Shown one piece after another: positions 26,517 through 33,047 of a stretch of DNA of 64,000 nt. A program made the translations under genes and the position numbers. The stretch's first letter is position 1, and the number at the start of each line of letters is the position of its first letter. The notes beneath the pieces were generated by a model. It was not told the DNA's origin and did not search any database. It was given only the letters and a program-made list of their open reading frames with translations. The stretch is from assembly GCA_022984795.1 (NCBI GenBank), contig JALIHJ010000046.1:124001-188000 (forward strand), in the 5' to 3' direction. Source of the stretch: Fabrea salina (taxonomy: Eukaryota; Ciliophora; Heterotrichea; Heterotrichida; Fabreidae).

Positions 26517-28178
26517 ATGGAAGGAGTATGGTGTAGTGGGTGCGAAGCAATTGCTCACTGTGAATGTGGGCAGTTTTTGTGTGCTCACACTATGCCTGGG
26601 CATGTAACCCAGGGCCATACTATTGGGCCTATTCTCCAGACTGCAAAGAAGGAGCCACCTGTTGTGTCCAAGAAGAAACTTCAAGTTCTTAGTTTGGGAG
26701 ACTTTATGATTTCTGAAGTCGAAAGACTCACTTCAGAGCAACTGGCACAAGTTGAGAGTCTGAGGAAAAGATTCTTGGACGGAGAAAACCAAGCTGAAGA
26801 AGAACTTAGAAAGATGAACTTTGAAAGGTACTTAGAAAGGGTTATGGAGTTTATGAAGGGTTTGAGTAATAAGATCAAGTTTGAGTTCCAAGAATTAAAC
26901 TCCAAGCTTGATGCTTTGGTGGAGGAAGTCAAAAAGCGCAGGGTTACAGAGACCGAAGTACAAGAACTTGAAAACCAACTAGAAAAACTAGAAGAACCAA
27001 GTGAAGAAAAGGCCAGGTGCTTGAGGAAGATCGGAATAGTTTACAAAGACATAGGCAAGTACCAAAAGGCAGAGAACTGCCAGGATAAGTGCTTAGAAAT
27101 CAGACAAAAAGCATTTGGCAACCAGAGTCCCGAAACAGCTGAGTCTTACAACGACTTAGCAGTGGTTTGCCGACTCATGAAAAACTACGATAAAACAGAG
27201 AAGTGCTGCTTGGAGTCACTAAGAATCAGAGAAGCGGTGCTTGACTCTCAGCACCCTGACTTAGCTCAGTCATATGATGAATTGGGAGCATTTTACTGCA
27301 AGAAGGGAAATTACCAGAAGTCAGAAGAGTACTTGATAAAGTGTTTGAGCATCAGAGAAGCAATTCTTGGCCCTCAACATCCCGATTTAGCCACAACATA
27401 TAAAAACTTGGGGTTATTTTTCAAGAACAAAGCAAACTACCAAAAAGCAGAAGAGTACTTACTAAGGTGCCTAAATATCAGAGAAGCTGTGTTTGATCCA
27501 TATCATGCCGATCTGGCTAATATATACAACAACCTGGCAAAAGTTTACTATTTAAACAACCAAAATCAGAAATCGGAAATGTATTTTACGAAGTGCTTAA
27601 AAATCAGAGAGGCAACTCTTGACTCTCAGCACCCTGATCTAGCTACTATATACATCAATTCAGCAACACTTTACTTAGGCAGAAAAGACTACCAGAAAGC
27701 AGAGGAGTACTTGCTCAAGTGCTTAAAGATTAGAGAAGCTATACTTGATCCCTACCACCCTGACCTAGCCACTGTATACGATAGCTCAGGGCTCATTTAC
27801 TTAAGTAAAAAAGACTACCAGAAAGCAGAACATTACTTCGCAAAATGCTTAAGAATCAGAGAGGCAGTTCTCGAACCTCAGCATCCTGGTATAGCTGCTA
27901 TATACGTCAACTCAGGAACACTTTACTTGAACAAAGGAGACTACCAAAAAGCAGAGGAGTACTTAACGAAGTGCCTGAATATCAAAGAGGCAGTCCCTGA
28001 CATCCCACATCCCAATCTGCTTCTTCTATACAAAAATTTCGGCCTGCTTTACTTGAACATGGAAGATTTCCGAAAATCAGAAGAATACTTCATAAAGTGC
28101 TTAGGTACCAAGGAAGCGGCCTCTGATCCTGACTTATCCTCAATACATAGAATTTTGGAGAAACTGCAGAATTTCTGA
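26517..28178 (+). CDS. Kinesin-light-chain-like TPR protein with N-terminal zinc-binding head
   Basis: A 553-residue protein. The first 40 residues carry a B-box-like cluster of cysteines and histidines (CSGCEAIAHCECGQFLCAH followed by PGHVTQGH). A coiled coil spans about 60-165. Residues 165-545 are eight or nine 42-residue TPR units, each with a core like YQKAEEYLLKCLxIREAxLxPxHPDLATxY, the form found in kinesin light chain and bacterial TPR_12 arrays. The repeats are similar in DNA, so the array is probably still changing. The stop is TGA, followed by TAA two codons on. Function is a protein-binding scaffold; partners unknown. Confidence 0.85.
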   Translation: MEGVWCSGCEAIAHCECGQFLCAHTMPGHVTQGHTIGPILQTAKKEPPVVSKKKLQVLSLGDFMISEVERLTSEQLAQVESLRKRFLDGENQAEEELRKMNFERYLERVMEFMKGLSNKIKFEFQELNSKLDALVEEVKKRRVTETEVQELENQLEKLEEPSEEKARCLRKIGIVYKDIGKYQKAENCQDKCLEIRQKAFGNQSPETAESYNDLAVVCRLMKNYDKTEKCCLESLRIREAVLDSQHPDLAQSYDELGAFYCKKGNYQKSEEYLIKCLSIREAILGPQHPDLATTYKNLGLFFKNKANYQKAEEYLLRCLNIREAVFDPYHADLANIYNNLAKVYYLNNQNQKSEMYFTKCLKIREATLDSQHPDLATIYINSATLYLGRKDYQKAEEYLLKCLKIREAILDPYHPDLATVYDSSGLIYLSKKDYQKAEHYFAKCLRIREAVLEPQHPGIAAIYVNSGTLYLNKGDYQKAEEYLTKCLNIKEAVPDIPHPNLLLLYKNFGLLYLNMEDFRKSEEYFIKCLGTKEAASDPDLSSIHRILEKLQNF

Positions 28179-28277: not shown

Positions 28278-31200
28278 TTACCAAGTCCCTGTGTTCCAGG
28301 TGTTTGATGTTTGGTTGCTTGAGTTTTGAGTATCCCAAGAACTACTTTTCGGAGCACTAGTTTGGCTAGGCTCGCTCCAAGAACTACTTTGTGGGCCAGT
28401 GTTTTCAGTGGAAGTGGCCCAGGAACTACTTTGCGGAACACTAGTTTGACTAGAAGTATTCCAAGAAGTACTTTGTGGGGCACTGTTTTCAGAAGGAACG
28501 CTCCAGGAACTACTTTGTGGATCAGGGTCGCCAGATCCACTCCATGAGTTACTTTGAGGTTTAGTTTGTTCAGAGGGAGCATTCCAGGAACTACTTTGTG
28601 GAGCACCACTTCCCCAAGAGTTACTTTGCGGAGCAGAGTCGCTAGATCTATCCCAAGAATTACTTTGAGGAGGAATGTTTCCAGAGGGAGCACTCCATGA
28701 GTTACCTTGTGGAGCAGAGTCACTAGATCCACTCCAAGAATTACTCTGATGGGGAATGTTTCCAGAGAGAGTACTCCATGAGTTACTTTGAGGGTTAGTT
28801 CGTTCAGAGGGAGCACTCCAGGAACTACCTTGTGGAGCAGAGTCACTAGATCCACCCCAAGAGTTACTTTGAGGAGGAATGTTTCCAGAGGAAGTACTCC
28901 ATGAGTTACTTTGAGGAGCACTACTTCCACAAGAATTGCTATGTGGAGCTGAGTTACTTTGTGGAGCAGATTCACTAGATCCACTCCAAGAATTACTCTG
29001 AGGTGGAATGCTTTCAGAGGAAGTATTCCAGGAACTACTTTGTGGAGCACTACTTGTCCAAGAACTAGTGTGTGGAGCAGAACTAGCCCAAGAACCACTC
29101 TGCGGAGCGCTACTTTCCCAGGAACTGCCAGAATCATCCCATATAGAGGAGCTTCCTTGATCCCAAGAGTTGCTAGGTGGACTTCCTTGATAACCCTGTC
29201 GCCTAGGACCTCTTCCTCTTCTTGGTCCCCTACCTCTTTCACTAGGTTTACTGCAGTCCCTTGAAATGTGTCCACTTTCTCCACAGTTATAGCATTCTCT
29301 ACCCTTTCTTTCACTAGGTTTACTGCAGTCCCTTGAAATGTGTCCACTTTCTCCACAGTTATAGCATTCTCTACCCTTTCTTTCACTAGGTTTACTGCAT
29401 TCCCTTGAAATGTGTCCACTTTCTCCACAGTTATAACATTGTCTGCCTCCTCGTCCCCTTCTACTAGGAGTATCCTTTGGACTGCTTTCTTGGAAACAAT
29501 CTCCGAAACTCATTGGAGACGAGTGATCAACTGGCTGCCAGCTAGTGTTTGGAACAGGCGGCAACTCCTTCCAAGACTCAAAGTTGCGACTCATCTGCCA
29601 ATCACTAGCTACTGGAGTAGCTTGGAGGTTGCCTCCAGCAGCCCATTCCTCAACACCGATCCTAGGAGTGCTGTCATAAGGAGTTTCGTTAGGACGCGCA
29701 GGGGTGGATTCGTGGTGGATTTGAGGGGTTGGAGGGATGAGTTTGTGACTGCGTTTGTCTATAAAAGGAGTTTGGGCTCTGGAGAGTTGGCTTTTGTAGT
29801 TTCTGTCGTTGTGGTGCTGTTTGAACCAAGAAGTGAGTTCGTTCAAAGAACGGAAGTAAGCCTCGTGGAAAAACAACCCTTTAGGTTTAACTTTGATGTA
29901 TTCAGTAATCAGTTCGTTGTATGGAACGTACTCAAGCAGAATGTACTGGGGAAACTTAGAAGTGACTGTGAAGTAGTAAGGCACACTGCCAGTCATAGTT
30001 CTTTTTTCTTTTAAAATGTTGGTTTGGAGTTGGCTTATAGGGGAGGTTTTGAACTTAATGTGGTTCCTGCATTCTTTTATAAGTTTCGCACAGGGTTTTA
30101 CGTACCTGTCTACAATTTCGTCTAGGGACTCATAAGGTTCGCCTTTGATAGTGAATCTTTTTCCTAGTAAATTTTCTTTGGGTTTGTCGTGTTCTATGAT
30201 GTCTAGGTGGGAGTAAACTCTGTCAAAAAACTTCCAGGTGCAAGTCAGGTGGTCTGTGCCTTTGCTGGAAGGTCTGAATAAGTAGCTGCCTATTTGGGAG
30301 TTTTTCAGTTCGTCTTCAGCTGTTCTGAAACCTATGTTTCTGAACTTAGGATGGTTTATGCTTCTGGCAAAGTACTTTTGGGGCAAGTCTTGACCTTCCA
30401 TAACAGCTTCGTCGTTAAAGTCTTCTTTCAGAGGCACAAAAGCTTCATCTAGTTCTAGGTTTAAAAAGTCTCTGTGGTTTTTTAAGTCTTGGGGTGATAA
30501 ACTCAGTTTCACTCTGAAGAAAAGGTCTCTGGATTGCAGCCTAGCGTTGATCTGCGTGACTCTAGCCCTCACACTAGTGCCTTTGTTGAGTTTTAAAAGG
30601 TCTTCTTTACTAAGCCCCTCAGCTGAGGCCTCCAGTCCGGATTCCAAAGTTACTTTAGCGCTTGAATGAGTCTCGTCCACTGAAACAACCATTCCTTCCA
30701 CTAAACTGCCTACTTTCAGGATGTGCTCTCCTAAGCACAGGTGCAACAACTCTGTAGGCGATGGCTCAGTGAACTCGTGTTCTTCTACAAAGTAAGGATA
30801 AGTGAGCTCATTCACTACAAAGCGAAGCAGGTCTTTAGAACTCATAGAGTCAATGTCAAGTTCTTGCATGCGCTCGGGGTGCTGCATAGCTTTAAGCACC
30901 ACTTTGTGTGATTCAGTTTCTTGATCCTGCAGTGCGCTTCTTGCAACCATAATAGCAGTTTCGTAAAAGTAGGGGTGGATCCTTGTGGAGTCTAATGGGT
31001 CTTTGCCAAATACCTTAATAAAACCTGCTGCGTTCTGGTAGATCTTTTCAGGAAGCATTTTGCTCTGAAGCATTTCAGTGCGTGTTACAAGGGACTCTTT
31101 GATGCTTCCAAGCAAGTGTTGAGCCCTTACAGGACCTAATCCCGGAACAAACTCTAAGCAACTCTGAAGGCAAGGCTTGCCCAGAATATAGTTGATATCA

Positions 31201-33047
31201 CATCCTTTGTTAGCCACTGCTTCTACCGCAACCATTTCAAGTTCAGTTCTGCAAATAAAGCTTTTAACTGGATGCAAGTTAAGTGAAAGCAGCAAGTCTT
31301 CATTGGGGTCACTAACTATTCCAAGTACTTCTTCTAGCGGGTGCAGAGTTAGCCTTCCCAAAGACACTGCCAAGACACTGAGTTCTGAGTAACCTCTAAA
31401 CATCTGGGAGTTTTGGGACTCAGCAAACACTCTGGGGACCTCTAAGCTTTTCATAAACACTTGCTGTTCAGAGAACTTAGCAAAGAGTCTTCGGAGCTGA
31501 ACGCTTTGGAGGGTGTTAGTGCCTATTACGAAAGCTTTGGGAGAGTGCTTTAGAGTTAACTCAGTTAGTTTTTCTTGTTCGAGTTTAAAGTTTAGTTGGT
31601 CTGAATCACTAGAACTGGCATTAATTCTCAGAGTAAGATGACTAAACTCAGTTACTTCACAGACTTCCCCTGAAAAGTCCAGCACTACTAAAGCTGTTTT
31701 CGCGTAGAAGTTGGAGTCGTTCACCACTGCAAACAATGTTTCGTTTTGGTTAAGTTTGAGTGAAGGCGAGTTTAAAAGTGCTTTGAAGTTCTCACAAGCT
31801 ACTTTGGTTACATGTTTCTGGGCTTTTAAGTCGAGTATTTGTTGGAGTTCTTCTTGGAAAGACTTATACAGGTTTTCTAAAGCTTGTTTAAGGACTTCAG
31901 TTCTGAAAAGGTTCCACTGTTTAGTGTTATCAGAAGTTTCTTTGGAGAGGTAGGCTTTTTTCATCTTCTTAAGAACAGAGTCTTTTTGGGCCTCGAAACT
32001 TACTTTTATGAGTTGGTCTGATTGGCACTGCTTAGCTTCTGCCCAGAGTTCAGCCGAAAAAGACTTGTAGTCTTTTCCTAAAGCTAAGTTCTTGACTCTA
32101 TAGTAAGGATGGAACACGTCTAGCTCTGACTTGCCTTTTTCTGTGGGTGCTGTGAACACCTTCACTGAGTTTTGGTAGTGAGTTCTTAAGTGCTGTCTAA
32201 TTGGTGGAAAGCAAGCTATTTCGGCACTCATAAGTTCAGCTGCGCTGTGGAGTACTTTGAGTTCTTCAGTAAAGTTTTCGCCTAAGAGTTCAAAAGCTAG
32301 GTCTTGCGGAGAGTCTGGGTAACTAGTAACTTCGTGGACTTGTTTGTCTGCTTGGAGGTTCTGGTAAAGCTGGTAAGGACTCAGTGCTGCCTTTTGAGTG
32401 AACTTGTCTAAATTTTGCTGGCGTAGTGCCTGAAAACGGTTGCTAGGTTTAGGTCCTTCAAGTGTGTGTATGTAGCAGTTGATGAACTTGTCTAAGTCGC
32501 TGAATTCCTCTATATAGTGGGAGTTCTCACTGAAGATTTCGTCTTTAAAAGGCAAGAAGTCTTTGGGAAAGGTTTTGTCTCCAGTCTTTAAGTTAGTTGC
32601 TTCTGAGTTGTGGATGGCTTTTTGCAAGGTGTTTTGTTTACTGGTTCTTTGAGAAAACACAAAACTCCACTCTTGGTCTAAGCTTCTGAGTTCCCAGCAG
32701 TTTTCCTTTGTCAAGGGTTTCAGTTCGAAGATTTTGTACCTTGTGATAAAGCTTACTTCTAGCTTGTCTAGTCTGTAGAACCTCAGAAACTTCTCTACTG
32801 CTTGGAATTCTAGACTTAGCTGAGAGCACATCCACTCTGCTTCTTTAGTGATTTCCTCCGAAGAAGGGTTTTCTCTGTCTTCAAAAGCTTTTTGGAGTCT
32901 TTCCGGAGCATCTGTGTCCTCAATGTACTGGTCCGCTGCGTAGTAACTTTTTTTTTGAAGTGCTTCTAGACTGCTAGGGTGCAAACGAGGTCTTTTCGTA
33001 GGAATGGATTCTTCGTTGGGGAAACTTTCTGTTTGGTCCTCAGACAT
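28278..33047 (-). CDS. SPT6: Transcription elongation factor SPT6 fused to zinc knuckles and a tryptophan-rich tail
   Basis: A 1589-residue protein. The SPT6 core has a YqgF-like nuclease fold (about 450-540), helix-hairpin-helix (LEFVPGLGPVRAQHLLGSI), an S1 domain (VEGMVVSVDETHSSAKVTLE) and tandem SH2 domains (IGSYLFRPSSKGTDHLTCTW and following) that bind the RNA polymerase II linker. Beyond the usual end come three CCHC zinc knuckles, each CYNCGESGHISRxCSKPSER (about 1199-1274), an RG-rich patch, and about 300 residues holding 24 tryptophans in QSNSWS-type units of 10-15 residues. SPT6 travels with polymerase II as a histone chaperone. The tail resembles Argonaute-hook (GW/WG) regions; plant SPT6L also ends in such repeats. 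Start-to-start spacer to GPI8 is 24 nt. Confidence 0.93.
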   Translation of the reverse strand: MSEDQTESFPNEESIPTKRPRLHPSSLEALQKKSYYAADQYIEDTDAPERLQKAFEDRENPSSEEITKEAEWMCSQLSLEFQAVEKFLRFYRLDKLEVSFITRYKIFELKPLTKENCWELRSLDQEWSFVFSQRTSKQNTLQKAIHNSEATNLKTGDKTFPKDFLPFKDEIFSENSHYIEEFSDLDKFINCYIHTLEGPKPSNRFQALRQQNLDKFTQKAALSPYQLYQNLQADKQVHEVTSYPDSPQDLAFELLGENFTEELKVLHSAAELMSAEIACFPPIRQHLRTHYQNSVKVFTAPTEKGKSELDVFHPYYRVKNLALGKDYKSFSAELWAEAKQCQSDQLIKVSFEAQKDSVLKKMKKAYLSKETSDNTKQWNLFRTEVLKQALENLYKSFQEELQQILDLKAQKHVTKVACENFKALLNSPSLKLNQNETLFAVVNDSNFYAKTALVVLDFSGEVCEVTEFSHLTLRINASSSDSDQLNFKLEQEKLTELTLKHSPKAFVIGTNTLQSVQLRRLFAKFSEQQVFMKSLEVPRVFAESQNSQMFRGYSELSVLAVSLGRLTLHPLEEVLGIVSDPNEDLLLSLNLHPVKSFICRTELEMVAVEAVANKGCDINYILGKPCLQSCLEFVPGLGPVRAQHLLGSIKESLVTRTEMLQSKMLPEKIYQNAAGFIKVFGKDPLDSTRIHPYFYETAIMVARSALQDQETESHKVVLKAMQHPERMQELDIDSMSSKDLLRFVVNELTYPYFVEEHEFTEPSPTELLHLCLGEHILKVGSLVEGMVVSVDETHSSAKVTLESGLEASAEGLSKEDLLKLNKGTSVRARVTQINARLQSRDLFFRVKLSLSPQDLKNHRDFLNLELDEAFVPLKEDFNDEAVMEGQDLPQKYFARSINHPKFRNIGFRTAEDELKNSQIGSYLFRPSSKGTDHLTCTWKFFDRVYSHLDIIEHDKPKENLLGKRFTIKGEPYESLDEIVDRYVKPCAKLIKECRNHIKFKTSPISQLQTNILKEKRTMTGSVPYYFTVTSKFPQYILLEYVPYNELITEYIKVKPKGLFFHEAYFRSLNELTSWFKQHHNDRNYKSQLSRAQTPFIDKRSHKLIPPTPQIHHESTPARPNETPYDSTPRIGVEEWAAGGNLQATPVASDWQMSRNFESWKELPPVPNTSWQPVDHSSPMSFGDCFQESSPKDTPSRRGRGGRQCYNCGESGHISRECSKPSERKGRECYNCGESGHISRDCSKPSERKGRECYNCGESGHISRDCSKPSERGRGPRRGRGPRRQGYQGSPPSNSWDQGSSSIWDDSGSSWESSAPQSGSWASSAPHTSSWTSSAPQSSSWNTSSESIPPQSNSWSGSSESAPQSNSAPHSNSCGSSAPQSNSWSTSSGNIPPQSNSWGGSSDSAPQGSSWSAPSERTNPQSNSWSTLSGNIPHQSNSWSGSSDSAPQGNSWSAPSGNIPPQSNSWDRSSDSAPQSNSWGSGAPQSSSWNAPSEQTKPQSNSWSGSGDPDPQSSSWSVPSENSAPQSTSWNTSSQTSVPQSSSWATSTENTGPQSSSWSEPSQTSAPKSSSWDTQNSSNQTSNTWNTGTW

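Follow-up and report, generated by a model that had tools for sequence, protein, structure and literature searches.

The SPT6B gene and its canonical paralog

The window analyzed here, a stretch of 64,000 nucleotides from the genome of the ciliate Fabrea salina, contains on its minus strand a long open frame (28278..33047) that codes for a protein of 1,589 aa, ends in a TAA stop and can be read in the standard code with no intron needed. Profile searches identified this protein as an SPT6 by way of its tandem SH2 domain (SH2_2; E = 5e-55), and it also matches human SPT6 (E = 7e-69, 236 bits), with which the phmmer alignments run across 207-737 and 823-1094. A search of the whole genome (18,328,466 bp in 103 contigs) recovered two SH2_2 matches: the above protein, hereinafter SPT6B, and a canonical SPT6 encoded on the minus strand of another contig (L010:2683-7386), hereinafter SPT6A, which scores 328 bits against human SPT6 vs the 236 bits of SPT6B. 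The two are about 40% identical overall (44% over one part and 34% over the other). Of the pattern matches in viral_contigs and genome_contigs, 0/9 and 0/92 respectively were confirmed as SPT6 relatives.

The domains of SPT6B are all encoded on the minus strand. Two of them exceed the Pfam cut-off, namely the HHH_7 helix-hairpin-helix domain (aa 586-679; 31011..31292; 39 bits vs 71 in SPT6A) and the tandem SH2 domain (aa 890-1078; 29814..30380; 186.5 bits vs 187.9 in SPT6A), while an HTH_44-like domain (aa 66-143; 32619..32852; 35% identity to SPT6A) and HHH_9 fall below it. The SH2 pair is followed by a TP-rich linker (aa 1079-1150; 29598..29813) that is common to SPT6A, with 41% identity. 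In SPT6A the HTH_44, HHH_7, HHH_9, S1 and SH2_2 domains are all above the cut-off, and YqgF and SPT6_acidic (E = 0.0075) are below it. The YqgF, Spt6_S1 and SPT6_acidic models found no match in SPT6B at E<=1, but all parts of its core except the acidic one align to SPT6A, inclusive of the YqgF and S1 parts that were missed by Pfam. Conservation between the paralogs is highest in the tandem SH2 (56%), followed by HHH_9 (54%) and S1 (43%), with the HTH, TEX-like, YqgF and HHH_7 parts at 33-35% identity. A search against NCBIfam gave no matches, and structure predictions from two-row alignments were unsuccessful, with a mean pLDDT of 33.7 for the SPT6B core and 31.3 for that of SPT6A.

An earlier note on this DNA, made from the sequence letters, had described the SPT6 core as complete. 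This holds for the SH2_2 and HHH_7 domains recovered by Pfam and for the remainder that aligns to SPT6A, but not for the acidic N-terminus, which is absent from SPT6B: the N-terminal side of SPT6A contains 147 residues with no counterpart in SPT6B, and there are 34 D/E in its first 90 residues. A missing N-terminal exon is unlikely, given the in-frame stops upstream of the SPT6B start and the C13 peptidase gene that begins upstream on the opposite strand (its exact start being a by-eye reading). The acidic N-terminus of SPT6 is its histone and Spn1/Iws1 side, and its absence places the chaperone function of SPT6B in doubt. Membership of the SPT6 family rests on the core, and we do not claim full chaperone function for the protein. 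The sequence suggests that SPT6B serves as a scaffold docked on the polymerase and is not a chaperone in the full sense. The SH2 pair of SPT6 has been reported to bind the phosphorylated linker of RPB1 (PMC10991848), and binding of SPT6 to the RPB1 linker is also described elsewhere (PMC12716044); we infer that SPT6B would still dock on Pol II, as a reduced chaperone. The single RPB1 match in the genome (L057, G000:C29) is a protein with a heptad CTD that contains a YSPTSPA-like run, unlike the RPB1 of Paramecium, for which no CTD repeats are reported in the available text of PMC12716044.

Under an alternative genetic code (table 6) the SPT6B frame would pass its TAA and reach 28209. We favor the standard code as SPT6B, SPT6A, five PIWI frames and SPT5 need no sense TAA or TAG, a support that amounts to consistency rather than proof. 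The window also contains three candidate 15-nt introns (8917, 43507 and 58156) of the form GTAAGNNTTANTTAG or close to it, and a long frame results when they are removed; the introns of Blepharisma are reported to be predominantly 15 and 16 bp (PMC9942806). Along with the standard code, the compact gene arrangement and the piggyBac-like and double-RNase III frames described below, such introns are what one would expect of a heterotrich. The gene neighboring SPT6B (26517-28178, plus strand) codes for a protein with many TPR repeats, among them seven TPR_10 stretches.

Zinc knuckles and the tryptophan strip

C-terminal to the linker, SPT6B displays in succession three zinc knuckles, a basic stretch and a tryptophan-rich strip. 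The knuckles lie within residues 1204-1265, are recognized by their CX2CX4HX4C sequence motif and comprise one copy of CYNCGESGHISREC and two of CYNCGESGHISRDC (29397..29438, 29325..29366 and 29253..29294, all minus strand). They had been described as three near-identical CCHC knuckles, and indeed the 72-bp units that encode them are 97% identical to each other; because of this near-identity their number could be off by one copy. The basic stretch, RGRGPRRGRGPRR, contains the sequence RGRG (aa 1271-1283; 29199..29237, minus strand). SPT6A has two knuckles of the same CX2CX4HX4C pattern.

The tail of SPT6B, counted from residue 1266 to 1589, holds exactly 24 tryptophans in 324 residues, all of them in a strip (aa 1295-1589; 28281..29165, minus strand) built of units of approximately PQSNSWSxSS and rich in S and P. 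Thus, the tally of about 24 tryptophans beyond the SPT6 core given in the earlier note is confirmed in both number and position. The same applies to its account of their flanks: the residue before W is S in 21/24 cases (T in 2/24 and I in 1/24). The distance from one W to the next is 10-14 residues in 19/23 spacings, 15/23 being either 13 or 14, with the four remaining ones measuring 8, 7, 29 and 5 residues. The 25 frames of >=300 codons within the window have a W frequency of 1.08%; with this as background, the chance of finding >=24 W in 324 residues is P = 3.5e-13, and 0/20,000 random placements of these tryptophans were as regular as the observed one. A cruder control using 99 open frames of >=150 codons from the window and eight further genome stretches places SPT6A first for W in the densest 100 residues (12), SPT6B next (8) and then three frames with 7, 6 and 6. 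By this ranking SPT6B is remarkable less for its peak W density than for how many tryptophans it has, how long the tail is and how regularly they are placed.

The tail resembles an Argonaute hook in that it is repetitive and of low complexity, and in that its W are set among small residues. Its motifs are mostly SW rather than strict GW or WG, as had been noted earlier; with 0 GW and 2 WG, GW/WG is not its main motif, and we call it hook-like rather than a hook. In SPT6A, where the tail that follows the knuckles is 115 residues long and contains 12 W (P = 5.7e-9), GW/WG is the main motif (7 GW and 5 WG). The layout of knuckles and then a W strip is hence common to both of these old paralogs, even though no similarity was detected between the letters of their tails, and the layout is therefore neither an artefact nor unique to SPT6B.

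Protein searches of the genome with each SPT6 tail found only the query itself. A genome-wide DNA pattern for spaced SW matched 102 places, as against 76 for the reversed control; a corresponding GW pattern matched only two places, which overlap and lie outside the SPT6 genes. As it did not recover even the known GW tail of SPT6A, it is an insensitive probe that a knuckle-less GW protein could escape. The 28 CCHC matches in the genome trace back to 17 distinct frames, some of them cut at the ends of their loci, with one match lacking a frame under the stricter motif. Within this set a dense W tail occurs in the two SPT6 proteins only, the densest W per 100 aa being 8 in SPT6B, 12 in SPT6A and at most 5 in the others. 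Two further frames of the CCHC set (at L036 and L040) look by eye like ion channels of the cyclic-nucleotide-gated type, each with a single knuckle near the C-terminus.

Selection on the strip

The DNA that encodes the SPT6B tail consists of tandem repeats whose several periods are mixed and overlap, and for this reason we examined selection at the protein level. Repeat units were anchored at 21 P[QHK] sites, which are independent of W; one register-shifted anchor was moved by one residue. In the coding frame the units show a pS of 0.61 and a pN of 0.25 (pN/pS 0.42), while the two other frames give pN/pS values of 1.04 and 1.39, the latter with 428 codon comparisons skipped owing to stops. The tryptophan is kept in 19/21 of these units (18/21 if the anchor is not moved). 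Of the two that lack it, one has a TGT codon (Cys 1373) in the expected place (28929..28931, minus strand), a decayed unit by comparison with the rest, and the other has lost the position.

When codons are compared in pairs across units, the W codon shows 0.37 nucleotide changes per pair, the five codons that precede it between 0.37 and 1.13, and the three that follow about 1.7. The tryptophan is thus not alone in its constancy, and the lead-in is kept as well. The tail is accordingly constrained as protein: to judge from the comparison of units, selection retains the W and its PQSxS lead-in, while the residues after the W turn over.

Possible clients of the strip and the significance of SPT6B

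The tentative explanation that we place first is that SPT6B is a derived second SPT6 that would act as a polymerase-docked scaffold, with tryptophan hooks for which PIWI proteins would be the likeliest client. SPT6B would be held on the polymerase by its SH2 pair, through the phosphorylated linker of RPB1, and its knuckles and RGRG stretch would touch the nascent RNA. The tryptophans, each a weak hook but numerous, would engage proteins that have pockets for this residue, the likeliest single client being at least one of this genome's five PIWI proteins. Docking of a PIWI protein might then place small-RNA complexes beside the transcript being scanned. SPT6A, whose strip is shorter and of the GW/WG kind, is probably the general elongation factor. 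The number and spacing of the tryptophans, which are beyond chance, and a low pN/pS in the coding frame only both favor the scaffold. So do the retention of W across units with far-diverged synonymous positions, the recurrence of the layout in SPT6A, the confinement of dense W tails to the two SPT6 proteins within the CCHC set and the strong conservation of the tandem SH2.

The genomic inventory favors a PIWI client. The five PIWI frames all have PAZ and Piwi domains, and the two compared with solved structures are both of the PIWI clade. Alongside them are three piggyBac-like frames and three that each code for a pair of RNase III domains (G000:C53:124028-124960, C18:105470-106387 and C37:190163-191068). 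One of the latter three has 1375 codons, and they are perhaps a Dicer and two Dicer-like proteins. One of the PIWI proteins (L015:3552-5960; G000:C16) has Glu where the first and second catalytic Asp would stand (GVEVF, YREGIS), and it may consequently lack slicing.

The tryptophan-pocket residues may speak against a PIWI client. Taking the human AGO2 pocket residues to be numbered K660, E695, F659 and P590, and reading the PIWI positions at fixed offsets from the catalytic motifs, we find P590 kept in 3/5 of the PIWI proteins, F659 and E695 in 1/5 each and K660 in 0/5; these AGO2 residues are thus mostly not conserved. Another point against is that the motifs of SPT6B are SW, not GW/WG. The tryptophan pockets of the PIWI clade are reported to be variable in general, and reports of GW binding in the clade are noted in the same source (PMC12477606). 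Furthermore, deletion of the WG/GW tail of Arabidopsis SPT6L was reported to leave chromatin binding and RdDM unaffected (PMC11127964), which speaks against a small-RNA role. The proposal of the earlier note, a polymerase-bound chaperone that serves as a platform for RNA and Argonaute, is supported in part. In its favor, an elongation factor of Pol II does bear a W strip under selection and knuckles of the RNA-binding type, SPT6A adds GW/WG motifs, and PIWI, RNase III and piggyBac-like frames are present; it is weakened by the pocket residues, the dispensable Arabidopsis tail and the absence of the acidic N-terminus from SPT6B. From the sequences at hand, the SPT6B tail possibly binds Argonaute proteins, and such binding is best termed putative.

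Comparable tails are known from other lineages. SPT6 with a GW/WG tail has been reported in streptophytes (PMC10991848) and in Physarum (PMC9864664), with animals and other eukaryotes having only hook-less SPT6 according to the available text of PMC10991848. Plant SPT6L ends in a disordered tail that holds many W in GW/WG context, and in Arabidopsis it is one of two SPT6 copies (PMC10991848, PMC11127964), as in Fabrea. It belongs to a far-off clade, the parts of these reports available mention no knuckles, and the other Arabidopsis copy is described there as lacking the hook, whereas in the present genome neither copy lacks a W tail and the motifs of SPT6B are SW. The SPT6 of Physarum polycephalum is a non-plant case with a WG/GW domain of five repeats, far fewer than in SPT6B, and knuckles go unmentioned in the available text (PMC9864664). 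The tails of plant SPT5L/KTF1 and of the Pol V subunit NRPE1 are polymerase-bound W strips that recruit AGO4 (PMC11127964, PMC10991848); they differ in their core protein, and AGO4 recruitment depends on the tail there, while the link in SPT6B is putative.

Closer relatives offer partial parallels. Tetrahymena CnjB also carries retroviral-type CCHC knuckles; neither it nor Wag1 has an SPT6 core, and neither is known as a polymerase-bound factor. Both are ciliate GW-repeat proteins needed in the selection of Twi1-bound small RNAs (PMC5666084). In Tetrahymena, the SUMO ligase Ema2, which is specific to conjugation, is reported to have Spt6 as its main target; DNA elimination is mildly defective in a SUMO-defective mutant, and Spt6 SUMOylation is not needed for lncRNA transcription (PMC10830130). 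Tetrahymena Spt6 is described with an N-terminal low-complexity region, a TEX-like region and SH2, and the available text of that report makes no mention of C-terminal knuckles or a W tail. Paramecium has several SPT6 copies (PMC12716044) and the elongation-factor paralogs Spt5m/Spt4m for developmental noncoding transcription (PMC12716044, PMC12203969), with no SPT6 tail described in the parts of these sources available. Literature searches on SPT6 with zinc knuckles, with ciliates or Piwi and with Argonaute or GW repeats found, in the texts available, no ciliate SPT6 with a knuckle-joined W tail. As far as these searches show, an Argonaute-hook-like SPT6 tail is new in a ciliate, as are its presence on both paralogs, its joining to knuckles and the use of SW for GW in SPT6B.

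A quite possible alternative is that the tail is a general elongation-factor repeat similar to the Spt5 CTR (TPAWNSGSK in S. pombe), which would be disordered and phosphorylated and, independently of Argonaute, would assemble a transcription condensate or recruit factors of RNA processing. S. pombe Spt5 does have W-containing repeats (PMC12716044), the tail of SPT6B is rich in S and P, and the strip occurs on both SPT6 copies, inclusive of the canonical SPT6A, so that it may serve general transcription. By eye, the one SPT5 found in this genome has no repeat tail, and SPT6 could have taken over such a role. Moreover, RdDM proceeds without the tail of plant SPT6L, for which condensates or clients of another kind have been proposed (PMC11127964, PMC10991848). 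Conversely, the SPT6B unit and its spacing of 13-14 residues are by eye unlike the S. pombe repeat, and the GW/WG motifs of SPT6A are the hallmark of an Argonaute hook. We give a small-RNA platform and a general transcription scaffold akin to the Spt5 repeats about equal weight.

It is improbable that the tail is functionless low-complexity growth, a Ser-Trp-rich product of slippage that is merely tolerated. The tandem array with its overlapping periods and the recently duplicated knuckle units would fit such an origin, and the retention of W may in part reflect that 2/9 of the single changes of TGG yield a stop. However, the depressed pN/pS is confined to the coding frame, the tryptophan persists in nearly all units defined independently of it, and W tails occur on two old paralogs. 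Collapse or expansion of repeats during assembly, which the earlier note had named as a potential refutation, could have altered the count of the near-identical knuckles by one copy, but it is a most implausible source of W units as diverged as these (pS 0.61), which are not assembler-made copies, or of the same layout at a second locus on another contig.

Returning to the scaffold with PIWI clients, one could envisage that ciliates evolved an SPT6 W hook separately from plants and joined it to knuckles that bind nascent RNA, and that the second copy, having shed the end that serves as histone chaperone, turned into a platform dedicated to riding on the polymerase, holding many PIWI-small-RNA complexes on the transcript in genome scanning and DNA elimination. 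We regard this full scenario as rather unlikely, though worth stating. SPT6B is a direct candidate link between the small-RNA complexes of ciliates and nascent transcripts. If the tail instead serves general transcription, W strips on SPT6 would not in themselves be Argonaute hooks, as the reported Arabidopsis deletion already suggests.
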